This document shows positions 6,630-27,298 of a stretch of 27,424 bases of DNA, in pieces; position 1 is the first letter of the stretch; each line of letters starts with the position of its first letter. The notes below the pieces were generated by a model, which did no database searches, was not told where the DNA came from, and was given only the letters and a program-made list of their open reading frames with translations. The DNA is taken from positions 1 through 27,424 of the IMG/VR virus record IMGVR_UViG_3300025872_002288. The stretch is one strand, 5' to 3'. Source of the DNA: a virus. A program made the translations under genes and the position numbers.

Positions 6630-7498
6630 CGCTGAATTCTATCCTCAGGAATAGGTTCAATAACCCAAGACTCAGGAATCAAATCTTTGGTATTATTGAA
6701 AGAAAGTCTTTCTCCAAACCAAGGATTTTGAGCAATCACTTTCTTATTTGGATTCTTCTGTAACCAAGCACCCCACCAAGACAGCGAACTATTAGCAATA
6801 ATAGCATCACTACACATACTCATTAGGCACAAGTCATAAAAAGGAACAAGAGATTTTTCCATTTGACCTGCGCCATTCAGTACTTGCTTAGGATAGTAAA
6901 TCCTGGTTTCGGAAAGATAGAAACGATCACCCTGGAATAGTTTTTGTTCCTTTACCCAATCAAGATCATCAGAACAAATCAATACTGGTTGATTATCTGA
7001 GAAATGCTTTTCAAGAAGATACTCATAATGATCAACGACAGGCATAGGATACCAGTCAGGACGACCTACATTGTCACCTCTGCGGATATGAAGCAGAACA
7101 ATGTTCCCATTAAATTGCTCCATAAACTCATTACAAGTTCCATGGATCTCATCTTTAAACTCAAAGTCTTCACGAATAGAATCTTCAATATGTTTGAAGT
7201 ACTTTTCACTCTGACGATAACCATCAATGTTTACATTATCTGGACAGTTATTAAAGAGTTCTTCATCAAACTCAAATCCAGGTTCATCTAGAGTTGGACC
7301 ATTTTGAATGAATCCAACATTTTTTACATTCTTAAGTTTGAATGCATCAAAGAGACCGTAGTTAGCATATGTTGGTGCGTCCTCAGGAGGAATGCACCAA
7401 TCAAGATTATTATTTGCAGCAATACCACGAAGTGCTGCATATTGGAACATCTGGTTCCCCAAACGACCATTTGTTCCAAGTCTGTTATATCCAATCAT
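6626..7498 (-). CDS. GT11 alpha-1,2-fucosyltransferase-like protein (copy 1)
   Basis: The 290-residue protein starts MIGYNRLGTNGRLGNQMFQY, the GT11 N-terminal motif, with LLHIRRGDN at 135-143 (Arg139, Arg140 and Asp142) binding the GDP-sugar, and ANSSLSWWGAWL near 243-254. It should transfer L-fucose, or another GDP-L-sugar, in alpha-1,2 linkage. It resembles the gene at 5002-5826 along its length but is longer in the middle and has a longer C-terminus, so the two probably have different acceptors. The start overlaps the nucleotide-sugar dehydrogenase stop as ATGA. Confidence 0.92.
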   Translation of the reverse strand: MIGYNRLGTNGRLGNQMFQYAALRGIAANNNLDWCIPPEDAPTYANYGLFDAFKLKNVKNVGFIQNGPTLDEPGFEFDEELFNNCPDNVNIDGYRQSEKYFKHIEDSIREDFEFKDEIHGTCNEFMEQFNGNIVLLHIRRGDNVGRPDWYPMPVVDHYEYLLEKHFSDNQPVLICSDDLDWVKEQKLFQGDRFYLSETRIYYPKQVLNGAGQMEKSLVPFYDLCLMSMCSDAIIANSSLSWWGAWLQKNPNKKVIAQNPWFGERLSFNNTKDLIPESWVIEPIPEDRIQR

Positions 7499-8637
7499 AA
7501 GTCAATCCAAAATACTTCTTCGTTAGGAATACCAAAAATCAATCTATCATTATACTGTTTTTCCAAGTTATCTCTTATTTCAGAATCAATAGAATCATAG
7601 TCAGTCACATATACCTTATAGTTTTCTTGGATCAAATCATAACATAAACGATATTGCTGACTTTCGGTTAGAATATCTGTCCCTGCTTTATATGTAATAT
7701 AGTGAAAAGCAAAAGGAAGTCCTCTAGTATTTTTCTTAATGAAATAATCTTTCAAGAACTTAGCGTGTTCATTGTTAAAATTGTCAGTCGTAAGACCTAG
7801 GTTATATTCAAGTCCAAGTTTTTTTGCATAAGCAGCAAAAGAACGATTGTCTCTTGGTAAGCACGGACCACCAAATCCATATCCATATTTCAAAAACTTA
7901 TTGCCAACCCTAGTATCATTACCGATTGCACTCAATACAGAATCAATTTCATCTTCCAAACCAGACTTGGTTAAAACTTCCCCAACCATATTAGCATAAC
8001 TAATCTTGGTTGTGAGATAGCAGTTAATAGCAAGTTTAACAATTTCGGAAGCAGTCAAAGACATAAAGTTAATCTTTGGTTCTGACACTTGAATCTTGTG
8101 ATAGATCTCACTGATCAGAGATTTAGTTTTTTCAGAATATCCCCCAACCAAAACCATGTCAGCATGTTGAAGATCACGAACGATTGTTCCCTGAGCAATA
8201 AACTCTGGATTATAGAATACATCTACTCCAAGAGAATCTAGTTGCTTTTGGAAGTTTTCACAATCTCCAGGATTCGTTGTACATCCTACAACGAATGCTT
8301 TTCCATTAACTGTAGTATCTACCTCTTGAATATCGTTTACAACCTGCCAAACAGCACTTACATCATAACTACCATCTGGCAAAGAAGGAGTTGCTACAAG
8401 CGTGTAGATCAGATCACACTCACGGATAACCTCTTTATTATCAGTAGTAGATCTAAAGTTTATAGCATCATCTAAAAGGTCAGAAACCTGTGGTTCATTA
8501 GTTTTGATGATTCTATCATTTAGACCATTAACATAGTCCTCACGAATGTCAGAAACTAAGACTTCATACCCTGCTTTTTCTAAAAGAAGAGCAAAGCAGA
8601 TACCAAGTCTGCCTGCTCCAATAACTCCAATCTTCAT
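7495..8637 (-). CDS. UDP-glucose/GDP-mannose dehydrogenase family protein
   Basis: The 380-residue protein has the full family layout: Rossmann motif GVIGAGRLG at residues 4-12, the NPEFIAQGT loop at 143-151, the SEIVKLAIN helix with Lys201, and the catalytic cysteine in YGFGGPCLPRD (Cys259). These enzymes oxidise C6 of UDP-glucose, UDP-N-acetylhexosamines or GDP-mannose to uronic acids with two NAD. The C-terminal substrate domain is present but somewhat short. The gene overlaps nadE upstream and a GT11 gene downstream by 4 nt. The GDP-mannose-centred genes nearby make GDP-mannose one possible substrate; sequence alone does not decide. Confidence 0.88.
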   Translation of the reverse strand: MKIGVIGAGRLGICFALLLEKAGYEVLVSDIREDYVNGLNDRIIKTNEPQVSDLLDDAINFRSTTDNKEVIRECDLIYTLVATPSLPDGSYDVSAVWQVVNDIQEVDTTVNGKAFVVGCTTNPGDCENFQKQLDSLGVDVFYNPEFIAQGTIVRDLQHADMVLVGGYSEKTKSLISEIYHKIQVSEPKINFMSLTASEIVKLAINCYLTTKISYANMVGEVLTKSGLEDEIDSVLSAIGNDTRVGNKFLKYGYGFGGPCLPRDNRSFAAYAKKLGLEYNLGLTTDNFNNEHAKFLKDYFIKKNTRGLPFAFHYITYKAGTDILTESQQYRLCYDLIQENYKVYVTDYDSIDSEIRDNLEKQYNDRLIFGIPNEEVFWIDL

Positions 8638-9407
8638 AGTTTAAATGTAGGAATAGAAACCATTTTATGTTTGTTTTGATTATGAAACTTTTGATAAATG
8701 TTTATCGCAAGTGTTTCTTGCTCATTAAGGAACATAGGATCTTCAGAGAGACCCCTTTCCATCACCCATTCTAACATTTCATATGATGTACCAATCTGAT
8801 CTTCATCAGTTCTTCCATCATCCCAAAGACCATCAGTTGGTTTTGCTTGAATAATACGCTGGTCAATTCCTAGCGACTTACCAAGTTCCCATACTTCAGT
8901 TTTGTAGAGATCTGCAATGGGAGCAATATCAACTCCACCATCACCATATTTAGTATAAAATCCAACACCATAATCTTCAACTTTATTTCCAGTACCAACA
9001 ACAACACCACCAACAGATGTAGCAACTTGATAAAGAGTTACCATACGAAGGCGTGATCTACTATTAGCAAGAGCGAGTTCATTGAAACCCATTTCTCGCA
9101 TAGTAAATTTAAAAGAATCAAAAACTTTAGTAAGGTCAAACTTATTCGCTATTACATTTGGAAAGTTTGCTTGCAACCATTTCAAGTGGGCGTCGGATAA
9201 AGTTTCCTGTTCTTCTTTTTGGTGAATAGGCATTCCAAGAGCATAAGTAGGAAGTCCAGTGGATGCAGCAAGAGTTGAAGAAACTGCCGAATCAATTCCA
9301 CCAGAAACACCAACTACAAATGCTTTGATATTATGTTCAATAACATAATCACCCAACCACTTCACTATTCTATTTTTTACATCATTATAGTCAGTGATAC
9401 GATTCAT
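8634..9407 (-). CDS. nadE: NH3-dependent NAD+ synthetase
   Basis: The 257-residue protein has the ATP-pyrophosphatase P-loop VSGGIDSAV at residues 34-42 and the NadE-specific stretches GTGNKVEDYGVGFYTKYGDG and KPTDGLWDDGRTDEDQIG. These bind deamido-NAD and ATP. Its size matches single-domain, ammonia-using NadE, which makes NAD+ in the last biosynthetic step. It lies inside a sugar operon between a PMI-type cupin and an NAD-dependent sugar dehydrogenase. It either supplies NAD for the oxidoreductases encoded around it, or is a specialised amide-forming enzyme in sugar synthesis. The start has a good AAGGA site, and an extended -10 promoter lies just upstream. Confidence 0.92.
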   Translation of the reverse strand: MNRITDYNDVKNRIVKWLGDYVIEHNIKAFVVGVSGGIDSAVSSTLAASTGLPTYALGMPIHQKEEQETLSDAHLKWLQANFPNVIANKFDLTKVFDSFKFTMREMGFNELALANSRSRLRMVTLYQVATSVGGVVVGTGNKVEDYGVGFYTKYGDGGVDIAPIADLYKTEVWELGKSLGIDQRIIQAKPTDGLWDDGRTDEDQIGTSYEMLEWVMERGLSEDPMFLNEQETLAINIYQKFHNQNKHKMVSIPTFKL

Positions 9408-9442: not shown

Positions 9443-9784
9443 TCAGTTAGTTCTGCCATAGTCATCTTCAAGTCTCACAATATCAGACTCTTCACATTTG
9501 TCACCCATTTGAACTTCGTAGAATAAGATACCGTCAGGACCTGCCTTCATACGATGAACTTGCCGAATACCAATCCTAAAGAAATCTCCAACTTCAACTG
9601 AAAATGTAATCCGATTAAGTGTTATGTCTCCATCACCCTCAACAACTACCCAATGCTCATCTCTATGATTGTGATATTGTAGAGAGAACTGTTGATTTGG
9701 ACTTACATAGATCTTCTTAAGTTTGTAGTAATCTTTTTCCTCTATGGTTTCAAACCATCCCCAAGGTCTTTCTTCTCTATTCAT
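9443..9784 (-). CDS. Cupin, mannose-6-phosphate isomerase type II-like
   Basis: The 113-residue protein is one cupin barrel: RPWGWFETIE near the start, the metal-binding LQYHNHRDEHWVVVEGDG segment, and GDFFRIGIRQVHRMKAG carrying the last ligand His. This matches the C-terminal isomerase domain of bifunctional ManC/WbpW enzymes, which interconvert fructose-6-phosphate and mannose-6-phosphate for GDP-mannose synthesis. Here it stands alone without the guanylyltransferase domain. The start at 9784 (MNREERPWG) is preferred; the frame is open to 9817, with another ATG at 9790. It overlaps the upstream gene by 8 nt. It could feed the Gmd/GME branch. Confidence 0.85.
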   Translation of the reverse strand: MNREERPWGWFETIEEKDYYKLKKIYVSPNQQFSLQYHNHRDEHWVVVEGDGDITLNRITFSVEVGDFFRIGIRQVHRMKAGPDGILFYEVQMGDKCEESDIVRLEDDYGRTN

Positions 9785-10517
9785 TTTCATAAATCCAGTT
9801 AGGATTTCGGTAAACAAGATTTATCTCATTATGATGAGTCTGTTCTTGATTTGGATGTCTGCGTTGGTACATATGAATCTCATTTTTATGACAATACTTA
9901 TCAATCAAATAGCAAATAGATGTACCAACAGTATGAATTTCTGATGCGTTCTCAAATGCTTTAATCCAATCAAAGACATTGAATCCATTTGCTTTATCTT
10001 GCTGAAGATTCATATAATGAACTTTCTTATCAGTATTGACATTGAAGTTATCTGAGTCGTCAGGATCAGTGCCAAAGGCACGATTAACAATCACATAATC
10101 ACCAGTAAGTCCATAAGTCTCAATCAACTTATTTTCCCTTTCCTCATCTCTAATGATATCAAAAGACTTCCTATAATCGGAGATAGGAACAGAAAGAAAA
10201 TAATATTTTGCTGCCATTACAGAACATCTTGGAAGATACCTGTCAGCAAAACTTGCAGGAACATAAAGTTCATTTTCAGTTTGATGAATATTTACTGTTC
10301 CATAATATTGTTTGAGAGGAAAATCATCAGACTCCCTAACCCAAACAAGATTATCTTTTTTCAGATACTTTACAATCAAGTCATAATAAACATCACCAAC
10401 GGGATAGTAAACAGTATATCCCTCCCCAATGATAACATCAACTAACCTCTGAAGCCATAAAACATCACCCAGACCTACTGGTTGATAAATCAAACAAGTT
10501 TTATTTGTAGTACTCAT
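9777..10517 (-). CDS. Putative GT-B (heptosyltransferase-like) protein
   Basis: The 246-residue protein begins with CLIYQPVGLGDVLWLQRLVD, similar to the GDxLxxxP N-terminal motif of family 9 (ADP-heptose) transferases. It has a C-terminal EIHTVGTSICYLIDKY stretch, like the second Rossmann domain of GT-B enzymes. It is shorter than typical GT9 proteins (about 320-350 aa), and other parts are not recognisable, so this is a fold-level guess. It overlaps the SDR upstream by 17 nt and the cupin downstream by 8 nt. Two other genes here (18010-18939 and 18930-19820) share similar weak GT9-like features. Confidence 0.6.
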   Translation of the reverse strand: MSTTNKTCLIYQPVGLGDVLWLQRLVDVIIGEGYTVYYPVGDVYYDLIVKYLKKDNLVWVRESDDFPLKQYYGTVNIHQTENELYVPASFADRYLPRCSVMAAKYYFLSVPISDYRKSFDIIRDEERENKLIETYGLTGDYVIVNRAFGTDPDDSDNFNVNTDKKVHYMNLQQDKANGFNVFDWIKAFENASEIHTVGTSICYLIDKYCHKNEIHMYQRRHPNQEQTHHNEINLVYRNPNWIYENE

Positions 10518-11337
10518 AACAGTCCCTAATACCTTTTTCTAATCCATCATACTCAATGCAAGATATGTTATTGGGAGATCCGCAATATGGATACTCAACA
10601 TAACTTCCTTGCTTTATAATATTAACATTATGACCATCAAGATTATTAATCATCTCAGCAATTTCGCTCAGATAATATTTCTCATTATACACACAGTTAA
10701 CATCACGAACAAGTGATCCGCTTCCCATTCTCAAAAAATAACTGATAATCTTATACAAATCATTTGCATAGATAAAATCTATTTTTCTATCTTTAAATAT
10801 CTGAATATCCTTCCCATTAATATAGTTGTTAATATTAGTATTAAAGAACCTACTAGGTTCTTCGTATGGACCAAAGCATCCAAAGATTCGAAGATTGATA
10901 CCCTTCCGATTATCCAAAACTCTTTTAGCAATACAGTATTTGGAGAATCCATATTTGTCGGATGGAATAACTTGCCCAAAGTCACTGGGAGATGGTTCCT
11001 CTACTGGGGCTGGGCGTCCATAAGAAGCTCCACTATCCAAGTTAATAAACAAATCAGTTTTATCAATATGCCTGAAGATATTTTCAAACATATTCATATT
11101 GGTATAGAATATTGACGGACCATCTTCAATTTCCCTACGACCACCTACTATTGCCCCGTGAATAATAGCATCATATCGCTGATTATTGAATAATGAATCG
11201 ACTTCACTAGTCACTTCCAATCTAACTTGATGAGATCTTGGTCTGACAATCTCCCATCCTTCTTGCTCCAAAAGAGGAACAATCTGGCGACCAATAAAAC
11301 CATTACCGCCAGTAAAAAGAATCTTACCCTTTTTCAT
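10501..11337 (-). CDS. NAD(P)-dependent sugar epimerase/reductase (SDR)
   Basis: The 278-residue protein is an extended short-chain dehydrogenase/reductase: nucleotide motif TGGNGFIG near residue 9, the catalytic serine region NLDSGASYG, and YGFSKYC, giving the YxxxK catalytic pair. A sugar substrate is likely; candidates are 4-keto-6-deoxy or 4-keto-3,6-dideoxy sugars made by enzymes in the same block, in the role of ColC, Fcl or YerF. The frame is open to a GTG at 11355, but the ATG at 11335-11337, with GGAAG in front, is preferred. It overlaps PanB upstream by 14 nt. The exact reaction cannot be read from sequence. Confidence 0.82.
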   Translation of the reverse strand: MKKGKILFTGGNGFIGRQIVPLLEQEGWEIVRPRSHQVRLEVTSEVDSLFNNQRYDAIIHGAIVGGRREIEDGPSIFYTNMNMFENIFRHIDKTDLFINLDSGASYGRPAPVEEPSPSDFGQVIPSDKYGFSKYCIAKRVLDNRKGINLRIFGCFGPYEEPSRFFNTNINNYINGKDIQIFKDRKIDFIYANDLYKIISYFLRMGSGSLVRDVNCVYNEKYYLSEIAEMINNLDGHNVNIIKQGSYVEYPYCGSPNNISCIEYDGLEKGIRDCYEYYK

Positions 11338-12190
11338 ACTTCCAACTAGAATCACTTAACAACTTTTCAAGTTCCTCATCTTTAATTTCGTAGAAGTTTT
11401 CTTCAGCAGGAAACTTAAGATCACGAACTTCATTTACATAATCAGTTAAAGCAGATTGGATAAGTTGACCTGCTTCGCAATAACGCTTCACGAACTTAGA
11501 TTTAAACTCCCAAAAGAGTCCAATCAAATCGTGCATAATCACAAGTTGACCATCAACCTTATCACCAGCACCAATACCATAAACAGGAATATCAAGGTTC
11601 TCTGCGATCATAGCAGCAGATTCTCTTGGCATTGCTTCTAAAAGAAGAAATGAACATCCAGCATCTTGAAGTCTCAATGCTTGATCAAGAATAACTTTAG
11701 CCTGATCTGCAGTTTTACCTTGCACTTTATATCCACCAAGCTTTGCCCGTGTATGTGGAGTCAATCCAAGATGACTCATTACCATAATACCAGCACTACA
11801 GATCGCCTTTACACGATCAACCATACATCCCTCAACTTTAACTGCATCCATTCCCGCTTGAATGAAAGCACCTGCATTGGTAATAGCATCCTCGTTGGAA
11901 ATTTGATATGACATATAAGGAAGATCCCCAACAGTAAACGCACGATTTACTCCACGGGATACTGCCCTTGCTGAGCGCAGCATATCATCCATTGTCACTG
12001 GAATAGTAGTTTGATATCCCAAGGTTGTCATTCCCAAAGAATCGCCAACGAGAACCCAATCTACTCCAGCATTATCCGCCATAAGTGCCTGTGGATAATC
12101 ATATGCAGTGACTCCAACGGTCTTTACTTTATTTTGCTTTTGCTTCTGCAACTTCAATATAGTTACTTTATCTTTATTATCAGCTGGCAT
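11324..12190 (-). CDS. panB: Ketopantoate hydroxymethyltransferase (PanB)
   Basis: The 288-residue protein has every PanB landmark: LVGDSLGMTTLGY with Mg ligand Asp50 and Ser51, GDLPYMSY with Asp89, VKVEGC with Lys118 and Glu120, VMSHLGLTP with His140, LLEAMPRES with catalytic Glu185, and PVYGIGAG. These align with the E. coli active site. PanB moves a one-carbon unit from 5,10-methylene-tetrahydrofolate onto alpha-ketoisovalerate, the first step of pantothenate and CoA synthesis. In this operon it is flanked by a ThDP enzyme (4-nt class spacing, TGATATG) and an SDR. It may act on a different alpha-keto compound in sugar modification. Family is certain; the substrate here is open. Confidence 0.92.
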   Translation of the reverse strand: MPADNKDKVTILKLQKQKQNKVKTVGVTAYDYPQALMADNAGVDWVLVGDSLGMTTLGYQTTIPVTMDDMLRSARAVSRGVNRAFTVGDLPYMSYQISNEDAITNAGAFIQAGMDAVKVEGCMVDRVKAICSAGIMVMSHLGLTPHTRAKLGGYKVQGKTADQAKVILDQALRLQDAGCSFLLLEAMPRESAAMIAENLDIPVYGIGAGDKVDGQLVIMHDLIGLFWEFKSKFVKRYCEAGQLIQSALTDYVNEVRDLKFPAEENFYEIKDEELEKLLSDSSWKYEKG

Positions 12191-12191
12191 A

Positions 12192-13892
12192 TCAATCTAG
12201 GGGGGTTACAATCATATTAGCATAAAATTCCTCTCTAGACAAGAAAGGATACATATCTTCCAAAGGTTTAGCAGTGACAGCTCCATTTTCGTTTTTCTTA
12301 CCCATAAGAGTAGGAACAACTTCCTGCCATTTTTGGCAAATCACTTCAACTATCACTGGGGTATCAAATTTAAAAATCATTCTCAGAGAATCATCAAACT
12401 GCTGATACTTTTCAATCCGAATGTAAGGAATCTTATATGCATGAGCAATGTCAGCAAGATCTGGAAAAGAAATGCCACTATCAGCATCTGTTCCAATCTC
12501 CCTACCATCAAAAAACTTTTTCTGAGTAGTTCTAATGGATAGATACCCATCATTATTCCACACAAAAAGTTTGATCGGTAGTTTGTGATGAACAATAGTC
12601 TGAAGTTCTTGAATGTTCATTTGGAGTGAACCGTCTCCAGTAACTCCAATTACATTCTTTGCACCAGCAAAGGATGCTCCAATACAAGCAGGAATAGTGA
12701 ATCCCATTTCTGCTTGAGCACTTGTGGTTACATAACGATCATTCCCTTTAATATCAACTGCCTGAGAGCAAACATAATAAGCAGATCCTGCATCAGAAAT
12801 CACAACACTACCTTCAGGTTTATGTTGATTCAGTTTGCTCATAAAGTCATAGAGATTGATTCCATTCTCATCCGATTCATAGGGAGGAGTAATGGGCCAA
12901 GATTCTCTCCAACCTAAACACTTCTGCTGCCACCCTACAGATTCGGAAGAAATATTATACAAATCAAAAAACTCTTTTAGATCTGTATGAATAAACTTAT
13001 CAATCTTTACAGTGTTTTTTGAGTGCTCATCAGCATCAATATCAACTACAACTACCTTTGCTTCTCTAGCAAACTGACTATAGTTATATCCAGTTACGGG
13101 AACTGGAAGACGACAACCAAGAACCAAAAGAAGATCGCAGTTCTGCATCGCAAAGTTTCCTGCTCTGGTTCCTTTGATCCCTACTCTTCCAACAAAATAA
13201 GAATCATCAGACTCAATCAAGTCAACCGCATTAAAAGAAGTTACAACAGGAATCTTTGAGTTATGAATATAATCTCTGAACTGTTCTTTAGAGATTCCTG
13301 CACAGTTAACACCATTTCCTGCCAGAATCAGAGGTCTCTTCGCATTCTTAACTTCTTCAACAAGATCAAAAAGATTCATTGATGCTCCCTGAAGATCCAT
13401 TGGAACATCAATCCAAACAGGACCAGGACGACCAGTTGTTGCCTGCTTGATTGCTTCCCGAACTACACTTTCAACTTCATCAACACTCTCAATAATCTTA
13501 GCAAACTTAGTGATTGGTTTCACAATCTCAACAATATTTGCTTCCTGAACACCAAGATTACGAACTCCTCTTGGGGAAATTTGATTAAGGTTTACATTAC
13601 CAGACACAAAAATAACAGGAACACTATCCTGCCAAGCATCCAAGAGACCAGTAATAGTGTTAGTGCCACCACATCCAGTGGTAGGACACACTGCAGCAAC
13701 ACCACCTGTGTATTTTGCATAAGTAACTGCTGCCATAGCAGATGCCTGTTCGTGGTGATTGCAAACTACTTTCATCTCAGGATGACAAGCAATAGCATCA
13801 TTCAAAAACATTGCGCCACCACCTGTTACAGTAAAAATGTGATGGGCACCTGCCTTATAAACTTGATCAATAATATAATCTACTACTCTCAT
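12192..13892 (-). CDS. ThDP-dependent acetolactate synthase-like enzyme
   Basis: The 566-residue protein has the three-domain ThDP layout: catalytic glutamate in NHHEQASAMAA (Glu48), a central Rossmann-like domain (LILAGNGV), and the ThDP/Mg motif GDGSLQMNIQELQ to WNNDGY at about 420-450. Closest in style are IlvB and the sugar-modifying YerE, which adds a two-carbon acetyl unit from pyruvate to C4 of a 4-keto-3,6-dideoxyhexose to make a branched sugar. The immediate upstream gene is an RfbH-type 3-dehydrase, the enzyme that makes that keto substrate, and the two overlap as ATGA. A YerE-like role is therefore inferred. Plain acetolactate synthase or a decarboxylase remain possible. Confidence 0.88.
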   Translation of the reverse strand: MRVVDYIIDQVYKAGAHHIFTVTGGGAMFLNDAIACHPEMKVVCNHHEQASAMAAVTYAKYTGGVAAVCPTTGCGGTNTITGLLDAWQDSVPVIFVSGNVNLNQISPRGVRNLGVQEANIVEIVKPITKFAKIIESVDEVESVVREAIKQATTGRPGPVWIDVPMDLQGASMNLFDLVEEVKNAKRPLILAGNGVNCAGISKEQFRDYIHNSKIPVVTSFNAVDLIESDDSYFVGRVGIKGTRAGNFAMQNCDLLLVLGCRLPVPVTGYNYSQFAREAKVVVVDIDADEHSKNTVKIDKFIHTDLKEFFDLYNISSESVGWQQKCLGWRESWPITPPYESDENGINLYDFMSKLNQHKPEGSVVISDAGSAYYVCSQAVDIKGNDRYVTTSAQAEMGFTIPACIGASFAGAKNVIGVTGDGSLQMNIQELQTIVHHKLPIKLFVWNNDGYLSIRTTQKKFFDGREIGTDADSGISFPDLADIAHAYKIPYIRIEKYQQFDDSLRMIFKFDTPVIVEVICQKWQEVVPTLMGKKNENGAVTAKPLEDMYPFLSREEFYANMIVTPLD

Positions 13893-15196
13893 TTTTGAAA
13901 AGTTGAAGTAATGGAACCGATGTAATCAATCATTTGATCTGTAATAGTTGGCGAACATCCAACAAAGAAAACAAGATCAAGAACTTTACAGGCATTAGGA
14001 TAATTCTTATAATAATCAAGATGACTATATCCAGGATGCATCAAAATATTACCAGCAAAATAATTCCTAGTCTGAATCCTATTAGACTCAAGGTGCTGAG
14101 TTAGTTTATTTTTAGTGTCTTTGGAATCACAAACGATGGGAACACCAAACCAACTAGTTTCTGCTTGAGGAAGTTCATTAATACTGCGGACACCAGGAAT
14201 CTTTTCAAAGTGTTCTTGGATTTTTACTTTGTTCAGTCTGCGAAGATAGTGAATCTCTTCAAACTTTTCAATCTGAACAGATCCTAGAGCACCTTGAAAA
14301 TCCATAGGTTTGAGATTATATCCCATTTGACTATAGACATATTTGTGATCAATGATGCCATCATATTTTTCAATCCACTTATCAAACCTCTTACCACAGA
14401 CTCCACAAGAGAGAAGATTCTGAGCACCTACACAATAACAATCACGCCCCCACCAAGCAAGACTACGAGCAATATTGATGAGTTCTTCGTCATCACTAGA
14501 TACCATTCCACCTTCTCCAGTACAAATATGATGTGCTGGATAGAAAGAACAAGATGCTGCAATAGAATAATCGGTCAGGTATTGATCATTCCACTTACTA
14601 CCAAGAGAGTCGCAGTTATCTGAGATCAGATAAATTTTATTCCTCTCGCAGATATCAATAAGTTGATCAAGGTTATATGGATTTCCAAGAACAGGAGATG
14701 AAATAATACCACGAGTACGGGTAGTAATCTTATCTTCAATCTCATTAATGTCCCAGTTTAGATCCGAAAAATCAATATCAACAAATACGGGTTTTAGACC
14801 AGTCTGAACGATAGGTGCAATCGTGGTTGGGAACCCCACACAAGAAACAATAATTTCATCGCCGTCTTGCCAACCAAACCTTTTCTTTAGAGCAGACATC
14901 ATGATCAGGTTAGCAGAACTACCTGAGTTGACCATCAAAGAATATTTCTTATTAAACTTCTTTGAAAACTTATTCTCAAACTTGTGTACTTCTTCGCCAG
15001 AAGCAAGCCACTTACCAGCAAGAAAAGACTTAAGAATTACACCAATCTCTTCGTTTGTCCAATAAGGACCAGAATAATAAACAGGAGATTGTCCAGGAAC
15101 AAACTCTCCACTGTTAGCAAGATATGGAAAAAGATCTTCTTCAGTTGATGTGATATTTTGAAGAAAATCTTGGATTAAAGTATTGATGTTGCTCAT
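13889..15196 (-). CDS. RfbH/E1-type Fe-S PLP 3-dehydrase
   Basis: The 435-residue DegT-fold enzyme has SFYPAHHICTGEGG, where His222 replaces the usual PLP lysine, the signature of dehydrating E1/RfbH enzymes rather than aminotransferases. Cys195 (in NCDSLG), Cys253, Cys255 and Cys267 (before GKRF) fit the E1 [2Fe-2S] pattern: the first gap is exactly 57 residues and the second is one. The last gap is 11 rather than 7 because of a short insertion that adds Cys264. E1 removes the C3 hydroxyl of CDP-4-keto-6-deoxyglucose with electrons from a reductase. CDP-sugar enzymes RfbF and RfbG are not visible here, so the nucleotide may differ. The C-terminus FQK overlaps the next gene. Confidence 0.92.
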   Translation of the reverse strand: MSNINTLIQDFLQNITSTEEDLFPYLANSGEFVPGQSPVYYSGPYWTNEEIGVILKSFLAGKWLASGEEVHKFENKFSKKFNKKYSLMVNSGSSANLIMMSALKKRFGWQDGDEIIVSCVGFPTTIAPIVQTGLKPVFVDIDFSDLNWDINEIEDKITTRTRGIISSPVLGNPYNLDQLIDICERNKIYLISDNCDSLGSKWNDQYLTDYSIAASCSFYPAHHICTGEGGMVSSDDEELINIARSLAWWGRDCYCVGAQNLLSCGVCGKRFDKWIEKYDGIIDHKYVYSQMGYNLKPMDFQGALGSVQIEKFEEIHYLRRLNKVKIQEHFEKIPGVRSINELPQAETSWFGVPIVCDSKDTKNKLTQHLESNRIQTRNYFAGNILMHPGYSHLDYYKNYPNACKVLDLVFFVGCSPTITDQMIDYIGSITSTFQK

Positions 15197-15198
15197 AG

Positions 15199-16050
15199 TT
15201 ATTTTGTGATTTGATCAATGTAATCTAGTGCCTCTTGACTTACAGCAGTTCTAAACCATTTACGAAGACCTCCGTTGGTTTTATTCACTTCTGCTGCCAA
15301 AGATCCACCAGCTTGATGTAGTACTTTAACTACCATTCTATCACCATTTACAGGATCGTCAAGGCACAACTGCCCATCTTGCACATACAAATTTCTCCAA
15401 CTGTCCCAATGAGTTTCTTCACCCCAAGTGTTACATACACCGTAGGAAAGACCTGTTCCCATCAGATCTATAACCTTTGCAGAGTATTTCCCACAATGAA
15501 ACAACTGATTTAAAGTATCTTGCTCATCCCCAAGACCATGGAAATAAGGATCAACTTCAGTCTTGATTCTATATGCTTCTTTGTTTAGATTATGCCAGTC
15601 ATACCAAAACTCTTTATTATTTGAAGCGATCAAACCTGCATTGATGAACTGTTGGACTGGAATCGGACTTCCATTACCAAATGGAGGAAGATGTGCAATA
15701 GTGATTCCTTGATGAGAACTTGCCTTACCGAGTGAGTTATTATTCCTCACTCCAATAATATCCTCATCACTTTCAAATAACTCAGTCAGTGGTCCAGTAA
15801 CAACAGAGTCCCCATCAATATGAACCACCATATCATAATCATTAATGAATGGCATACAAGTTGGTGCCATCATCCAGACAGGTTGAAGCCAAGGATCACT
15901 CACCTTAGCTTCCTCAGTCATCTTGGAATCAAAAATAAAAAAGTCAATGTCCGGATGAAAATGTTTGAAAGATTTGACCAGATCCTCAACTCCAATCAAA
16001 TCAACATAGTCATCAGTACACCAAGTGGATACTGCAATTCTTTTAGACAT
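15199..16050 (-). CDS. Putative GT-A glycosyltransferase (GT8-like)
   Basis: The 283-residue protein has MVVHIDGDSVV at about residues 74-84, a DxD-type metal motif (Asp79 and Asp81), followed by QQFINAGLIASN and GDEQDTLNQLF. That order (DxD, then NAG, then an acidic DEQ) is typical of family 8-type GT-A enzymes that use UDP-sugars. No signal peptide or membrane segment is visible, so it is cytoplasmic. It starts 2 nt after the DUF6165 gene. The assignment is to fold and general activity; donor and acceptor are unknown. Confidence 0.72.
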   Translation of the reverse strand: MSKRIAVSTWCTDDYVDLIGVEDLVKSFKHFHPDIDFFIFDSKMTEEAKVSDPWLQPVWMMAPTCMPFINDYDMVVHIDGDSVVTGPLTELFESDEDIIGVRNNNSLGKASSHQGITIAHLPPFGNGSPIPVQQFINAGLIASNNKEFWYDWHNLNKEAYRIKTEVDPYFHGLGDEQDTLNQLFHCGKYSAKVIDLMGTGLSYGVCNTWGEETHWDSWRNLYVQDGQLCLDDPVNGDRMVVKVLHQAGGSLAAEVNKTNGGLRKWFRTAVSQEALDYIDQITK

Positions 16051-20927: not shown

Positions 20928-22091
20928 TTAAATATTGTCAAGTATTTTAGATAATACTTTCATTTGTTGTGATGTCACAAAATGATTATTACCAACATAT
21001 ACACCACTTGTATGTAGAACTTCTACATTTAGTTTATCTTTCTGAGTGCAAACTTCATATTTTTTGAATGCAGGATGTCTCAAAAGATTACCACTCACAA
21101 TAGGACGATGCTCAATTCCTTTTGAATCAAAGATGTCCTTTAGTTTATTCATGTTTTCAGAATCTTTACAAATGATCGGGAAGCAGAAACTACTGTTTCC
21201 GGATCTATACTCCGGAACATAGAACTTGTGAGCATTACGGGCAATAGAAAGACAAAAATCTTTATAGTTTCTCCTACGGATTTCAATCATATCATTAAGT
21301 CTCTTCAACTGAGAAAGTCCAAGAACAGCACAAACTTCATGATTTCTGAAGTTATATCCATCAGTCATAAACAGAAACTGTTTTGAAATGTCAGGATTTT
21401 CTTCAATATACTGCTGAAATCTTTCTGGACTAGATTCTCTTGCCATTCCATGACTGCGCTTCATTCGCATCAGTTCATACAAATCCTTATTATTTGTACA
21501 AACCATACCACCTTCAATCGTAGTCATGTGGTGTCCAAAGTAAAAACTAAAAGTAGAACCTAAAGAATCTTTTCCCCTACGGACTCCGCTATTACTTTCT
21601 ACCCCATGAGACTCACAAATATCCTCAAGAATAAGAGCATTTGGGAATAACTCTTTATATTTTTCTACATTTGCAGAAATACCAAGAAGATGAGTGATGA
21701 AGATTGCTTTTACATCTGGATGTTCTTTTGCAATATACTGAAGATCGTCTTCATCAAAACTAAAATTGCGAAGGTTTACATCACAGAAAATAGGAGTAAG
21801 TCCAGACTGAATAACTGGAGCAACATTAGTAACCCAAGTACAAGCGGGAACAATGACTTTATCTCCATCTTGTAGATTGTAGAGTTCCTTAACTGAAGAA
21901 ATCAGAAGAGAGTTTGCGGTACTACCAGAAGAAACATAAAGAGAATAATCACAACCCAACCAGTCTGACCATTGCTTCTCAAACTCACGAACTTTTGGTC
22001 CATTTGTCAGGCGGCTGGTAAGAAGAACGAACTTCGCCATTTTTAAACGATCAGCAAGAGTGATCGTATCTTTCATAAGTGGCCAATACAT
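20928..22091 (-). CDS. ColD-type GDP-4-keto-6-deoxymannose 3-dehydratase
   Basis: The 387-residue PLP enzyme has the DegT fold, with SSGSTANSLL early and FSFYFGHHMTTIEGGMV around residues 181-197. A His (187-188) replaces the lysine that forms the Schiff base in aminotransferases. ColD of E. coli has 388 residues and His188 in this role, and lacks the Fe-S cysteines of RfbH; this protein lacks them too. ColD converts GDP-4-keto-6-deoxymannose to its 3,6-dideoxy form, en route to colitose. The substrate would be made by the Gmd encoded just upstream (16-nt gap). A ribosome site GGGAGGAA precedes the ATG. Which enzyme carries out the next reductive step is unsure. Confidence 0.93.
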   Translation of the reverse strand: MYWPLMKDTITLADRLKMAKFVLLTSRLTNGPKVREFEKQWSDWLGCDYSLYVSSGSTANSLLISSVKELYNLQDGDKVIVPACTWVTNVAPVIQSGLTPIFCDVNLRNFSFDEDDLQYIAKEHPDVKAIFITHLLGISANVEKYKELFPNALILEDICESHGVESNSGVRRGKDSLGSTFSFYFGHHMTTIEGGMVCTNNKDLYELMRMKRSHGMARESSPERFQQYIEENPDISKQFLFMTDGYNFRNHEVCAVLGLSQLKRLNDMIEIRRRNYKDFCLSIARNAHKFYVPEYRSGNSSFCFPIICKDSENMNKLKDIFDSKGIEHRPIVSGNLLRHPAFKKYEVCTQKDKLNVEVLHTSGVYVGNNHFVTSQQMKVLSKILDNI

Positions 22092-22107
22092 ATCTTATTC
22101 CTCCCTA

Positions 22108-23115
22108 TCAAAACCGCAGTTCATTCAAGCACATATCTCGCACAAGTTCATCAAAACTAATTTTTGGTTCCCACCCAAGTTTTTCTCTTGCTTTAGATGA
22201 ATCACCAATCAAAGTATCAACTTCAGATGGACGGAAGTATTTCTCACTGACTCGGATTACAACTTTGTCACTTACGGTATCAATACCAACCTCATCAAGA
22301 CCTTCACCTTCCCAGCGAATATCCATACCAAAGTAAGGAGCACACTTCTCAACAAACTCACGAACAGAGTGTTGTTCTTCAGTTGCAATCACATAATCAT
22401 CTGGTTCATCTTGCTGGAGCATTAACCACATTGCTTCCACGAAATCCTTTGCATGTCCCCAGTCACGCTTTGCATTCAGGTTGCCAAGTTGAACGCAATC
22501 CAAAAGACCAGATTTAACCTTAGAAAGTCCAATCACGACTTTACGGGTCACAAAAGTTTCACCACGACGAGGAGACTCGTGATTAAAGAGAATACCAGAA
22601 CTCGCATGAATACCCATTGATTCACGATAGTTCTTAGTAATCCAATGTCCATACAGTTTTGCTACTCCATAAGGAGAGCGTGGATAGAATTGAGTAGTTT
22701 CTCGCTGAGGAATTTCTTGAACCAAACCGAACATTTCAGAAGTAGATGCCTGATAGAAACGGACATCCTTTTGCATACCAAGAATACAAAGACTGTGAAG
22801 GATTCTTACTGTTCCAAGTGCATCCACCTCTGCCGTATATGCAGGCATTTGAAAAGAAACTTTCACATGACTTTGTGCTGCAAGATTGTAAATCTCAGTA
22901 GGTTCAACTTCCTGAATAACATGAAGAATATTTGTAGAATCTGTCAGATCTGCATGATGCAAAATAACATCCGAAGACAGATGATCAATCCTATCATTAT
23001 TAATTGAAGAACTTCTTCTTATAGTACCATGTACTTCATACCCCCTTGATAAGAGAAGTTCAGCAAGATACGATCCATCTTGCCCCGTGATTCCAGTAAT
23101 AAGTGCTCTTTTCAT
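22108..23115 (-). CDS. gmd: GDP-mannose 4,6-dehydratase
   Basis: This 335-residue enzyme is a textbook Gmd: NAD motif [29 protein letters not shown], catalytic TSEMFG, the YGVAK Tyr-Lys pair, [16 protein letters not shown] and [19 protein letters not shown]. It converts GDP-mannose to GDP-4-keto-6-deoxymannose, the shared precursor of fucose, colitose and perosamine. It is the first gene of the 19-kb operon. The frame is open to a TTG at 23121, but the ATG at 23113-23115 is chosen because it lies 20 nt from the predicted transcription start. It has no strong ribosome site. Confidence 0.97.
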
Positions 23116-23134
23116 ACACAAAATATTTTTCTAT

Positions 23135-24132: not shown

Positions 24133-24134
24133 GA

Positions 24135-24207
24135 TGCTGGTTGTGGGGAACGATCCCACCTATGCCGATTTATGAGATCGGTGCATTCACCAGATTGCTA
24201 AACCAGC
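24135..24207 (-). tRNA. tRNA with anticodon CAU (Met, or Ile2 if lysidine-modified)
   Basis: Cloverleaf of 73 nt: acceptor GCTGGTT / AACCAGC, anticodon stem CCGAT / ATCGG perfect, loop CTCATAA, T-stem GTGGG / CCCAC. The T-loop is ATCGTTC: positions 54 and 58 are A and U rather than the normal U and A. CCA is not encoded. The CAU anticodon alone cannot separate elongator Met from lysidine-modified Ile. Confidence 0.85.
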
Positions 24208-24211
24208 ATTC

Positions 24212-24234
24212 GCTATTCGCAAATAGAGAATAGC
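24212..24234 (-). other. Hairpin directly 3' of tRNA-Ile
   Basis: GCTATTC / GAATAGC, 7-bp stem with a 9-nt loop, 2 nt past the tRNA 3' end, in the short gap before tRNA-Met. Confidence 0.6.
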
Positions 24235-24236
24235 AA

Positions 24237-24327
24237 TAGGGACACTTGGATTCGAACCAAGACCTCGCGCTAATCTGGCGCTAATACGGAGTATAAGACC
24301 GCTGTTCTACCGTTGAACTATGCCCCC
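24237..24327 (-). tRNA. tRNA with apparent UAU anticodon (Ile) and long variable arm
   Basis: About 91 nt. Acceptor GGGGGCA / TGTCCCT (two G-U pairs), D-stem GTTC / GAAC, anticodon stem GCGGT with TCCGT (one U-U mismatch), loop CTTATAC giving UAU, T-stem CTTGG / CCAAG with loop TTCGAAT. The variable region is about 24 nt and can form GCGC / GCGC, a type II feature expected in Leu, Ser or Tyr, not Ile. The tRNA call is firm; the identity is less so. Confidence 0.75.
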
Positions 24328-24329
24328 AC

Positions 24330-24355
24330 AAAAAATCACGAACCTTCTTCGTGAT
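24330..24355 (-). terminator. Terminator overlapping end of the antitoxin gene
   Basis: Minus-strand stem ATCACGAA-GAAGG-TTCGTGAT followed by TTTTT. Its 5' arm encodes the last codons and the stop codon lies in the 3' arm. It sits 3 nt before tRNA-Ile. Confidence 0.85.
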
Positions 24356-24566
24356 CGGTGTGGATTCGTATCATTTCGTCATCCACAACTGAATCTATCG
24401 CATACTTTATAGTTTCATTGTATGGAACTATCACTGCACTTCTTCCCCCATCTTTAATAATAAAAGACTCTCCATTTTCTACTCTTTTCATTAAGTTATC
24501 AAAATCTGCTTGAAACTCTTCTACTGTAAATGCCTGAAGTTCTGAAAGTTCTGAATACATTTTCAT
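24336..24566 (-). CDS. Phd/YefM-like antitoxin
   Basis: The 76-residue protein has the Phd/YefM N-terminal fold: LQAFTVEEFQADFDNLMKRV, followed by ENGESFIIKDGGRSAVIVPY, the strand-helix DNA-binding unit of type II antitoxins, then an acidic C-terminal tail that normally wraps a toxin. No toxin ORF is adjacent. The frame runs upstream through tRNA-Pro, so the ATG at 24564-24566 (or 24558-24560) is the sensible start, with no strong ribosome site. The last codons form half of an intrinsic terminator. An orphan antitoxin in a phage may neutralise host toxins; that is an inference from other phages. Confidence 0.85.
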   Translation of the reverse strand: MKMYSELSELQAFTVEEFQADFDNLMKRVENGESFIIKDGGRSAVIVPYNETIKYAIDSVVDDEMIRIHTDHEEGS

Positions 24567-24583
24567 AAAGTAAAGTTTTATGA

Positions 24584-24655
24584 TCGGGGTGGAGAGGATC
24601 GAACTCCCGTCTTCATCTTCCCAAAAGATGCCGTCTACCGCTGACTTACACCCCG
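24584..24655 (-). tRNA. tRNA-Pro (UGG)
   Basis: 72-nt cloverleaf: acceptor CGGGGTG / CACCCCG, D-arm with AGCGGTA, anticodon stem CATCT / AGATG with loop TTTGGGA (UGG), T-loop TTCGATC. The 5' end abuts the stop codon of a 38-codon ORF. CCA is not encoded. Confidence 0.92.
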
Positions 24656-24772
24656 TTATTTGTTTCTGTGTATAAACATAATACCAGCAAATGGTACGAC
24701 TGTCAACCCACATCCACAAAGAAAAAGAAAGAAAGGATTTGATGCTAGTGCTTCAACTAGTTGAAAAATCAT
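24656..24772 (-). CDS. Small membrane protein (38 aa)
   Basis: Too short for normal ORF calling. The start overlaps the upstream stop as ATGA, with a strong GGAGGGGAAG ribosome site, and its TAA ends exactly where tRNA-Pro begins. The peptide is MIFQLVEALASNPFFLFLCG followed by a hydrophobic stretch with two Cys and a basic end (HRNK), one membrane span with the positive side at the C-terminus. The promoter for tRNA-Pro lies inside this gene. Function unknown. Confidence 0.72.
   Translation of the reverse strand: MIFQLVEALASNPFFLFLCGCGLTVVPFAGIMFIHRNK
24678..24706 (-). promoter_or_regulatory. Early promoter for tRNA-Pro and antitoxin
   Basis: Minus strand: TTGACA (24701-24706), 17 bp, TATTAT (24678-24683). 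It is inside the 38-aa ORF; the start site would be near 24671, about 16 nt before the tRNA 5' end. Confidence 0.82.
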
Positions 24773-24969
24773 CTTCCCCTCCAGTTCTTATATTCATAAT
24801 ACATGTATTGGTCCACTTCGTCAAGTCCCTGTAACGGAGCAGTAACTTCCCAAGTAGACCATTCTTCACAAAACTGTTTAATATCTATATTGTTCATAAT
24901 AGAGTATCCGTGCATTCTTACAAAAGCAGACATTGCAAAGTGATACTTCTGTTTATTGGGGATATGCAT
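24769..24969 (-). CDS. Hypothetical protein (66 aa)
   Basis: No family recognised. It is a soluble, aromatic-rich protein (MHIPNKQKYHFAMSAFVRMH and VDQYMYYEYKNWRGR). The start overlaps a possible 30-codon gene by 17 nt, and its stop overlaps the next small gene as ATGA, so it is embedded in a chain of coupled small genes. There is no other ribosome site than sequence inside the upstream ORF. Confidence 0.68.
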   Translation of the reverse strand: MHIPNKQKYHFAMSAFVRMHGYSIMNNIDIKQFCEEWSTWEVTAPLQGLDEVDQYMYYEYKNWRGR

Positions 24970-25045
24970 GAGTCAATCCCCAATAAATCCACAGACCAAT
25001 AGTTGACCCATAAATGAGTGTTAGTGCCAAAAGTGTTTTACTCAT
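24953..25045 (-). CDS. Candidate 30-aa membrane peptide
   Basis: MSKTLLALTLIYGSTIGLWI followed by YWGLTHAYPQ: a single hydrophobic span. The ATG (25043-25045) overlaps the upstream stop by 8 nt with GAGGA just before it, and its end overlaps the next gene. It explains an otherwise empty gap of 68 nt. Coding is likely but not proven. Confidence 0.52.
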   Translation of the reverse strand: MSKTLLALTLIYGSTIGLWIYWGLTHAYPQ

Positions 25046-25328
25046 CTTCCTCGTCCTCATAAGTTGATGGTTCTTCAAAGAGTTCATCCATTTTCTGTTG
25101 GAGAATTCTTTGGTGCAGTTCCTGCAAATCTTCTTCGGTGAATCTAACCACTAGTAGAGGATCTCCTGCTTTAACGTCGTTTAATTCTGGATGTTTTACT
25201 TTTGGACTTTTTGAATACCCATGACGAGCATTCATAATCATCCACCCCTGAACAAACATTGACAGGGCAATCACCACAAGAATAAACCAAGGAACTAAAA
25301 AGATTAGTTCAGAGTGATTTTGAGCCAT
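25038..25328 (-). CDS. Membrane-anchored acidic protein (96 aa)
   Basis: No family recognised. Residues 8-31 form one strong transmembrane helix (LIFLVPWFILVVIALSMFVQ), then a basic turn (NARHGYSKSPKVKH) which would stay cytoplasmic, and a helical, acidic C-terminus (RFTEEDLQELHQRILQQKMD, ending EDEEDE). It overlaps the gene before by 25 nt. The shape is an N-terminal anchor with a cytoplasmic coiled region, suitable for a membrane-associated partner-binding protein. Confidence 0.78.
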   Translation of the reverse strand: MAQNHSELIFLVPWFILVVIALSMFVQGWMIMNARHGYSKSPKVKHPELNDVKAGDPLLVVRFTEEDLQELHQRILQQKMDELFEEPSTYEDEEDE

Positions 25329-25507
25329 GGAAGTAATGGAGGAATAACTCCTACAAGTCTCAAAAGTCCTTCAGCAAATAAAGCAAGAACCACCCAACCG
25401 ACGCACATACTAATGATAGAAGCATTACGGTTGTGTTGTCGTATTGCTGCATCAATCATCTCCTGAACTTCTGAGCGTGTAATAAACTCTTCTTGTTCGT
25501 GCATCAT
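25304..25507 (-). CDS. Small membrane protein (67 aa)
   Basis: The N-terminal half is a charged helix (EEFITRSEVQEMIDAAIRQH), and residues 30-60 are hydrophobic with a proline-rich loop (VGVIPPLLPWL), so one or two membrane spans. It overlaps the upstream gene as ATGATG and the downstream one by 25 nt. No known family; a two-gene pair with the 96-aa anchor protein is possible. Confidence 0.72.
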   Translation of the reverse strand: MMHEQEEFITRSEVQEMIDAAIRQHNRNASIISMCVGWVVLALFAEGLLRLVGVIPPLLPWLKITLN

Positions 25508-25752
25508 TGGTTTGGATGATCTTGTTCCAGTTCAGTCAATCTCTTTTCCCAAGTAACACCACCTTCTTTTCCTCTACTTGAGTTAATACAAGTATCATCT
25601 CCATGTTTATTACAAACTAATCCTGCAAGATCTAGTTCGTTTCCTTTTTTTCCGGTTCCGGACCAGTAGTGCTCTCCATTAATCCAAACAGCACCACACT
25701 TTGGGCATTCCTTTCTTTCCAAAGAAAGATCAGACAGCTCTTTATCAGTCAT
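25504..25752 (-). CDS. Putative zinc-ribbon protein (82 aa)
   Basis: The ATG at 25750-25752 is chosen: AAGGAG lies 8-13 nt upstream, and the gene overlaps the one before by 8 nt. CPKCGAVW (Cys16 and Cys19) and a later pair, LVCNKHGDDTC (Cys47 and Cys55, with a nearby His), look like a small metal site. A conserved WSGTGKKG loop lies between them. It may be a nucleic-acid-binding or HNH-like remnant; no catalytic motif is complete. Confidence 0.75.
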   Translation of the reverse strand: MTDKELSDLSLERKECPKCGAVWINGEHYWSGTGKKGNELDLAGLVCNKHGDDTCINSSRGKEGGVTWEKRLTELEQDHPNQ

Positions 25753-25960
25753 CTGTGTACTCCTTAAGGAACTTTTCAAAATTGGTCGTATCCTTAATCA
25801 GTTGTCTTTTAAGGTTCCAACCCATCCATTTCATCTGGACTCTTACTGCAGCATACCTAACTTGTAGGTCTGCATATTGAAAAAGTCTCATGGTTTCATC
25901 ATAACCCGCGTATACTACTAATGCAATAAATGTCAGCATTAGAAGATAAAACCCTGTCAT
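25745..25960 (-). CDS. Membrane-anchored protein (71 aa)
   Basis: One N-terminal transmembrane helix (FYLLMLTFIALVVYAGY), followed by a basic, amphipathic region (RYAAVRVQMKWMGWNLKRQL) and an acidic end. No family recognised. It is the first gene after tRNA-Ser, behind an extended -10 element at 25992-26000. Confidence 0.75.
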   Translation of the reverse strand: MTGFYLLMLTFIALVVYAGYDETMRLFQYADLQVRYAAVRVQMKWMGWNLKRQLIKDTTNFEKFLKEYTDD

Positions 25961-25991
25961 TTTTGTATTTTGATATATTTAATATGTAGAC

Positions 25992-26000
25992 ATTATATCA
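25992..26000 (-). promoter_or_regulatory. Extended -10 element
   Basis: TGATATAAT on the minus strand is a perfect extended -10. No good -35 is visible. It lies 32 nt before the 71-aa gene and 34 nt after tRNA-Ser, in the largest gap nearby. Confidence 0.55.
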
Positions 26001-26033
26001 TTTCTTAAAGATTGTAATATGTTGATATAAAAA

Positions 26034-26118
26034 CGGAAAGGGTGGGATTCGAACCCACGGATGCTTTCACATCGCTAGTTTTCAAGACTAGAGCCTTCAA
26101 CCACTCGACCACCTTTCC
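26034..26118 (-). tRNA. tRNA-Ser (UGA)
   Basis: 85-nt type II tRNA: acceptor GGAAAGG / CCTTTCC, anticodon stem CTAGT / ACTAG with loop CTTGAAA (UGA), long variable arm with GATG / CATC, T-loop TTCGAAT, discriminator G as usual for Ser. CCA is not encoded. A T-run follows directly. Confidence 0.95.
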
Positions 26119-26128
26119 AGTGGGAGGT

Positions 26129-26380: not shown

Positions 26381-26395
26381 TATTCTTCATCCTAA

Positions 26396-26830: not shown

Positions 26831-26847
26831 TATACTCTTTTTATTTT

Positions 26848-26855
26848 TATTTATC
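26848..26855 (-). promoter_or_regulatory. Late-promoter-like octamer before the Dps gene
   Basis: GATAAATA on the minus strand differs by one base from the T4 late consensus TATAAATA and lies 18 nt before the ATG. A/T-rich surroundings make a chance match possible. Confidence 0.4.
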
Positions 26856-26858
26856 AAG

Positions 26859-26931: not shown

Positions 26932-26935
26932 TAGG

Positions 26936-27007: not shown

Positions 27008-27011
27008 ATGT

Positions 27012-27297: not shown

Positions 27298-27298
27298 A

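Follow-up and report, generated by a model that had tools for sequence, protein, structure and literature searches.

The 27,424-nucleotide IMG/VR virus record IMGVR_UViG_3300025872_002288 (the window, here the whole stretch of DNA that was analysed) carries four consecutive, intact genes, encoding an RfbH-type 3-dehydrase (dependent on pyridoxal phosphate, PLP, and an Fe-S centre), a YerE-like carboligase dependent on thiamine diphosphate (ThDP), a PanB protein (ketopantoate hydroxymethyltransferase fold) and a short-chain dehydrogenase/reductase (SDR). Open reading frames (ORFs) and family profiles agree on this assignment, which had been made from the sequence alone, and both the gene identities and the conserved linkage described below are firm. 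We consider it likely that the block is a phage-encoded pathway to a C-branched 3,6-dideoxy sugar, in which PanB would supply a 4-hydroxy-2-oxoacid donor to the ThDP enzyme. A pathway of this kind (the YerE/ErwE-type branching pathway) is already known; the new element, which is predicted and not proven, would be PanB as the donor enzyme. Judged from its flanks, the record (37.8% GC) is a cyanophage-like fragment, all 77 records matching the right flank being Synechococcus phages and 412 of the 413 matching the left flank being named Synechococcus, Prochlorococcus or cyanophage.

In the proposed route, the RfbH-type enzyme would strip the 3-hydroxyl from a nucleoside-diphosphate (NDP) 4-keto-6-deoxyhexose, and PanB would hydroxymethylate a 2-oxoacid of the host (candidates are pyruvate, 2-oxobutyrate or 2-oxoisovalerate) with 5,10-methylene-tetrahydrofolate as the one-carbon source, so that a 4-hydroxy-2-oxoacid forms. 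This acid would then be decarboxylated by the YerE-like enzyme and its hydroxyacyl unit joined to the C4 ketone of the NDP-4-keto-3,6-dideoxyhexose, the SDR is proposed as the reductase of the branch ketone, and the finished sugar, its branch carrying the hydroxymethyl-derived carbon, would go into a surface glycan remodelled by the phage. The substrates, the order of the steps, the nucleotide carrier and the biological role are those that we infer. The sequence-only reading had offered either a hydroxymethyl transfer on an alpha-keto intermediate or a side chain attached to a sugar; the comparative evidence favours the former, modified so that the hydroxymethyl group goes to a free 2-oxoacid, which serves afterwards as donor for the ThDP enzyme. 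The branch may also be something other than the two-carbon yersiniose unit which that reading had invoked.

Among structures in the PDB, the ThDP protein scores 365 bits with 8rph, 264 bits with 5ahk (which we take to be PpYerE) and about 203 bits or lower with plant acetohydroxyacid synthases (AHAS). The first of these is JanthE, a characterised YerE-like carboligase (PMC12188165). The earlier likening to YerE is therefore sound insofar as the enzyme, judged by its best solved relative and not by YerE itself, is nearer to YerE-like enzymes than to AHAS. A GDG motif and the glutamate of an HEQ motif are invariant across the 16 ThDP rows aligned. Isolate phages gave 46 records with ThDP matches, all below 60% identity (30.5% in the top row), and the 25 plasmid rows listed (of 1,318 records) are ordinary or unnamed genes by their row names. 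In one phage contig (L316, 4989-6803; loci are designated by L numbers) the ThDP gene is split into three reading-frame pieces.

The top PDB matches of the dehydrase (3bcx and 3bb8) are CDP-6-deoxy-4-hexulose-3-dehydrases, that is, CDP-4-keto-6-deoxyglucose 3-dehydrases, and its best NCBIfam model is RfbH, below the cut-off (375.5 vs 423 bits). A histidine replaces the PLP lysine (FYPAHH), and the Cys-rich stretch reads CYC...C..C. Aminotransferases carry the PLP lysine at this position, and histidine is the mark of the 3-dehydrase type. Since the histidine is present in all 69 aligned DegT proteins (taken from the window and 67 of the 80 viral loci), the pattern fits a 4-keto-3,6-dideoxy sugar as acceptor, although the DegT neighbours vary between the Fe-S RfbH type and types without the cysteines. 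The ORF family of the SDR is present in 56 of the 81 clustered records (window included).

The evidence that ties PanB to this chemistry is its constant neighbour. Our viral PanB scan kept the best 80 of 103 relatives, with 71 distinct PanB stretches among them, and a ThDP gene was found in all 80 loci, with at most 180 nt between the matches. A ThDP ORF 450 aa or longer is present in 78 of these loci and in the window, and in every one of them it is the next ORF to PanB, in either order and with a gap of -100 to +102 nt. Because the pair recurs in every kept locus and over so many distinct PanB stretches, it is not a chance association, and the co-occurrence to which the sequence-only reading had pointed is borne out. 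The same PanB clade adjoins three classes of ThDP enzyme, of which classes two and three are 31-36% identical to the window protein, and mapping the label "PanB" onto a ThDP tree of 60 rows takes five changes; this tree was made by a quick method that does not distinguish gain from loss, and omits same-label near-copies above 70% identity, edge loci and six of 20 bacterial loci. RfbH also occurs without ThDP: two isolate cyanophages (S-B43, RN05-S), the single-cell virus AG-345-D19 and a large uncultured phage have an RfbH that is 53-62% identical to that of the window, and the stretches read from these four loci hold neither a ThDP gene nor PanB. As far as these sequences tell, PanB goes with the ThDP enzyme and not with RfbH.

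Scans led by the ThDP protein gave a compatible picture, with PanB in 35 of 38 loci at first (the remaining three stop at the ThDP gene or shortly after it); in the broader scans, duplicates included, 80 of 118 loci have PanB and 38 lack it. Many of the cassettes discussed below stem from the PanB-led scan. PanC was found in none of the 126 viral loci (two scans, some contigs counted twice) vs 57 of 80 bacterial PanB loci, within the stretches fetched; beyond these, PanC matched in the E. coli control (L209) alone. None of the 80 bacterial PanB loci, the best 80 of 589, matches the ThDP query proteins. In the window, PanC gave no tblastn match and no other pantothenate gene rose above the Pfam cut-off in the 20 of 32 ORFs scanned, in agreement with the earlier statement that no other such gene is nearby; one UDP-glucose-dehydrogenase-type ORF (7495-8637) matches PanE/ApbA below the threshold (21.9 bits, cut-off 22.2). 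A B12-binding radical SAM protein (ORF family 21, 15 loci; for example L027, 6479-7999) lies near PanB in loci with a ThDP enzyme of the third class, and could methylate the donor or the sugar.

The gene next to the ThDP gene behaves as a swappable slot, which is new here. After merging of duplicates, 116 distinct ThDP sequences remained, and leaving out five at a contig or locus edge gave 111 viral cassettes (a count that includes near-copies), in which a partner was sought within four ORFs of the ThDP gene. PanB, the commonest choice in the phages seen, takes the slot in 83 (as the next ORF in 81), an HpcH/HpaI-type gene in eight, NeuB in three and a DmpG/HMGL-type gene in two; no cassette of the 111 holds two listed partners together. 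Among the examples tested with profile hidden Markov models, HMGL, NeuB, DJ-1_PfpI and aminotransferase were confirmed, as was, weakly, HpcH_HpaI (32.5 and 33.9 bits, cut-off 25), and L324 has a 4-hydroxy-2-oxovalerate aldolase and an acetaldehyde dehydrogenase, both above cut-off. The probability of 4.5e-8 for the exclusivity (over 11 aldolase or aminotransferase cassettes) assumes independent cassettes, which they are not; we put weight on the count from the ThDP tree instead.

DmpG, HpaI-type aldolases, NeuB and PanB each make a 4-hydroxy-2-oxoacid, and, by family membership, most replacements of PanB belong to such families. The YerE-like enzyme ErwE prefers donors of the 4-hydroxy-2-oxoacid type (PMC12247030), JanthE takes 4-hydroxy-2-oxovalerate with benzaldehyde (PMC12188165), and E. 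coli PanB condenses formaldehyde with several 2-oxoacids in vitro (PMC10127515). We propose the slot gene as the maker of the ThDP donor because the products of these slot enzymes are all 4-hydroxy-2-oxoacids and E. coli PanB accepts several 2-oxoacids; as a prediction this role is well supported by the exchange of genes in the slot. NeuB-family synthases partner the ThDP gene in L329 (6764-7849), L330 (3898-5004) and L246 (10815-11903), and as a slot enzyme NeuB would supply a long, polyhydroxylated 2-oxoacid as donor, with a large branch as the outcome.

In bacterial counterparts the slot varies too. Relatives of the window ThDP protein at E <= 1e-90 occur in 10/193, 2/329, 8/296 and 1/77 genomes of four phyla, and 20 of the 21 loci were used as cassettes (L241, whose ThDP ORF was missed by the ORF caller, was left out). 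The slot holds an aldolase-type gene in eight of the 20 and PanB in none. Two short contigs (L222, L249) have acetaldehyde dehydrogenase and 4-hydroxy-2-oxovalerate aldolase (DmpG) adjoining the ThDP gene, the aldolases above the equivalog cut-off; four loci that are much alike (L244, L245, L247, L248) have an HMGL-type gene between RfbH and ThDP; and L221 and L250 have an HpcH-type gene. RfbF, RfbG-like and RfbH genes accompany these last six. The slot is taken by NeuB in L246, by DJ-1/PfpI in L229 and by an aminotransferase in L210, L223, L224 and L226, the first of which, a locus from an Omnitrophota metagenome-assembled genome, has the order RfbF-RfbG-aminotransferase-ThDP-SDR-RfbH. No listed partner was found in L225, L227, L228, L242, L243 and L251; of these, L227 and L228 have RfbF, SDR or RfbG-like genes, ThDP and RfbH, and look like a pyruvate-donor, yersiniose-like form.

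The phage PanB itself is complete and distinct. It passes the NCBIfam panB equivalog (282.3 bits, cut-off 207.55), and its AlphaFold model (mean pLDDT 77, used to confirm the fold only) finds 1o68, 3vav and 1m3u as best structure matches with probability 1.00. Nine checked residues, which we take to be catalytic or substrate-binding (including Mg and 2-oxoacid binding), are identical in 81/81 viral and 71/71 cellular aligned proteins (the latter being E. coli and 70 of 80 bacterial loci, ten having given no matching ORF), and the earlier remark on an intact active site holds. At position 204 (E. coli Ile200), all 81 type-1 viral proteins have Y or F, vs Y in two of the 71 cellular ones, and at position 218 (Val214) all 81 have I, vs seven of 71. 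The four proteins of a second viral type have Y, I, L and Y at 204 and I at 218. An altered pocket (Y/F204, I218) in phage PanB stays a hint, because the second type varies at 204 and the pocket role of the two positions is our assumption.

The top full-length bacterial match to PanB is 53% identical (a partial match, L161, 56%) among the best 80 of 589 relatives, so closer bacterial proteins may exist. In a PanB tree of 107 rows, the 34 type-1 viral rows included (47 of 81 were left out) form one clade with support 100/99, apart from the sampled housekeeping-type PanB, so that the ancestry check proposed with the sequence-only reading came out in favour of that reading. Its sister (100/95) combines a phage PanB (L199) with two bacterial rows (L095, L130) whose genomes hold another PanB match too; with three phage sequences added, L199, L294, L300 and L322 mix with L095 and L130 at low support. 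Because the second viral type intermixes with these bacterial rows, phages may have acquired this kind of PanB more than once. On balance, we lean towards a scenario in which PanB was recruited, possibly repeatedly, as a folate-dependent donor maker and phages swap this module with pyruvate aldolases and NeuB, diversifying the branch. A bacterial group with Chloroflexota-type titles (L103, L143, L148, L152, L088) lies outside the main PanB group and shows no PanC match within its loci, possibly reflecting another PanB role. Among isolate phages, 13 of 50,697 records match PanB, all below 60% identity and none named Synechococcus phage; most are taken as host DNA, one record having been opened (MW495066.1, L082, named Microcystis phage MaAM05), where guaD, panB, panC and suf genes stand together in a stretch that looks bacterial. 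The 25 plasmid rows listed for PanB (of 640 records) are ordinary or unnamed genes by row name.

Several observations weigh against the proposed pathway. The slot holds DJ-1/PfpI, which to our knowledge does not make 4-hydroxy-2-oxoacids, in six of 111 viral and one of 20 bacterial cassettes; an aminotransferase, which would give a plain 2-oxoacid, in one viral (class I) and four bacterial cassettes; and none of the listed partners in eight and six, respectively. Scores of the HpcH-type genes against their own family are weak (32.5-37.6 bits, cut-off 25), and in L244 the HMGL gene falls far short of the aldolase cut-offs (46.7 bits vs 229), so the HpcH- and HMGL-type reactions are assumed. A 3-dehydrase stands within four ORFs of the ThDP gene in 60 of 83 PanB cassettes, not in all. 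Neither the window nor any of the 126 viral loci gave a match to the cytidylyltransferase RfbF, and these stretches therefore encode no complete CDP route; RfbG matches the window at 24% only, within another SDR, and both occur in bacterial homologue loci. The nucleotide carrier may not be CDP, because the dehydratase upstream of ThDP in L342 best fits the dTDP-glucose model (306.7 bits, cut-off 365.1). If the product of PanB is ketopantoate, its quaternary carbon would make it an unusually hindered donor for a ThDP enzyme. The pathway chemistry and enzyme activities are predictions and not proven.

Other explanations have to be weighed against the same data. PanB might be an ordinary vitamin auxiliary gene that raises host pantothenate and coenzyme A (CoA), placed in a glycan island by accident; this would suit a protein complete by profile and catalytic residues, and PMC8940887 reads viral pantoate transferase as boosting CoA. 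It seems unlikely in view of viral loci without PanC, the unfailing ThDP neighbour, the exchange of PanB for other genes in the same slot and the four RfbH-only phage loci without PanB. A related idea, in which the ThDP enzyme acts as acetolactate synthase and the two enzymes together replenish valine and pantothenate precursors, can draw on the best NCBIfam model (AHAS, 348.5 bits, though below the cut-off of 738); we find it hardly credible, since AHAS entries score below JanthE in the PDB search, the ThDP gene accompanies RfbH and SDR in phages and several bacteria, and neither IlvC nor IlvD was named in the 20 window ORFs scanned.

An intact PanB could also yield ketopantoate or pantoate for attachment to the sugar as an acyl group, close to one option of the sequence-only reading. 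This is quite improbable, given that the same 20 ORFs name no acyl-activating or amide-forming gene and hold PanE/ApbA below cut-off only, that the DegT neighbours are of the dehydrase (His) type and not aminotransferases, and that the constant partner of PanB is a ThDP enzyme. Hydroxymethylation of the 4-keto sugar itself by PanB, beside the ketone and after or instead of ThDP branching, would explain the co-occurrence too and might accord with the divergence of phage PanB from the sampled housekeeping type, and yet we give it very little credence, because the residues we take to bind Mg and the 2-oxoacid are kept and genes of 2-oxoacid aldolase families take the same slot.

The synthesis of a donor by PanB thus remains our preferred reading, and its closest known parallel is the erwiniose pathway of Pectobacterium atrosepticum, in which, by the published description, ErwE adds a hydroxy-functionalised 2-oxoacid unit to CDP-4-keto-3,6-dideoxyglucose (PMC12247030); the phage donor differs in being proposed to come from PanB and folate. 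From the yersiniose pathway the phage block differs in its added PanB and in the missing RfbF. The yersiniose gene set is RfbF-RfbG-RfbH-YerE-YerF, and RfbH, a ThDP carboligase and an SDR likewise share one block in the window, as do RfbF, RfbG, RfbH, ThDP and SDR in L210. YerE, unlike the enzyme proposed here, favours pyruvate (PMC12247030). JanthE (Janthinobacterium sp. HH01), the closest solved structure by sequence, has CDG where the phage enzyme has GDG. Housekeeping PanB (the E. coli enzyme, 1m3u) shares fold and catalytic residues with phage PanB, which differs in its separate clade, its loci without PanC and the substitutions at Ile200 and Val214.

Pantoate transferase is the most abundant of the marine viral vitamin genes of PMC8940887, rfbH is listed among marine viral genes (PMC10653327), and a review of YerE-like enzymes mentions viruses only as unexplored. 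No link of viral PanB to a ThDP sugar cassette was found in the open-licence literature searched; an ocean-wide survey (PMC11360552) could have missed the cassette, because it left out contigs with lipopolysaccharide islands. If the proposal is true, a gene counted as a vitamin B5 auxiliary gene in an ocean survey belongs to surface-glycan synthesis, the exchange in the slot allows donor classes to be predicted for YerE-like enzymes of phages and bacteria that are still uncharacterised, and the pairs are natural enzyme combinations for making tertiary alcohols. Phages would then diversify the branch on host surface sugars, perhaps (we speculate) against superinfection or co-infecting phages.

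The block lies in a glycan island with Gmd, a second 3-dehydrase, UDP-glucose-dehydrogenase-type, fucosyltransferase-type and FkbM genes (Table 1). The earlier description of its four genes as overlapping applies to RfbH/ThDP (4 nt) and PanB/SDR (32 nt, or about 14 nt if an internal ATG is the SDR start); a single base separates the ThDP and PanB ORFs. Of the two conserved neighbours, the one at 15199..16050 has no Pfam or NCBIfam match and the one at 9777..10517 no Pfam match.

Table 1. Positions in the window of the block and of neighbouring features.
Feature	Position	Strand	Remarks
RfbH-type PLP/Fe-S 3-dehydrase	13889..15196	-	435 aa, intact; DegT; top PDB matches 3bcx/3bb8
YerE-like ThDP carboligase	12192..13892	-	566 aa, intact; Pfam TPP enzyme; top PDB match 8rph
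PanB (ketopantoate hydroxymethyltransferase fold)	11324..12190	-	288 aa, intact; Pfam PF02548 (Pantoate_transf) 323.5 bits, cut-off 28.7
SDR	10501..11355	-	284 aa, intact; Pfam Epimerase 90.5 bits
Possible glycosyltransferase, conserved neighbour	15199..16050	-	DGD-like motif by eye only; ORF family in 25/81 records, adjoining RfbH
Conserved neighbour of unknown family	9777..10517	-	Kept in closest relatives, e.g. L002, L004, L005, L006
Second 3-dehydrase, ColD-like	20928..22091	-	His for Lys; without the RfbH cysteines
Gmd (GDP-mannose 4,6-dehydratase)	22108..23121	-	TIGR01472 521 bits, cut-off 415

The ColD-like 3-dehydrase adjoins Gmd (20928-23121), which suggests that this phage has another route to a dideoxy sugar, perhaps a colitose-like one. 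In L015 (9674-10790) and others (ORF families 8 and 10, in 24 and 23 loci), genes for a PfkB kinase and a cytidylyltransferase-like protein, which together look like a split HldE, lie near the block and suggest heptose nucleotide synthesis by phages. DJ-1/PfpI adjoins ThDP in the PanB-free L304 (6761-7972), L307, L321, L323, L325 and L326 and in the bacterial L229, and L304 also has a gene that resembles cupins (23.7 bits, short of the 27.2 required by Pfam). The ThDP ORFs of L229, L251, L321 and L323 are 785-862 aa long, with N-terminal parts that look alike by eye. Finally, the glycan island of the window includes NadE (NAD synthetase, 8634-9407), and eight tRNA genes lie at 24133-27369.

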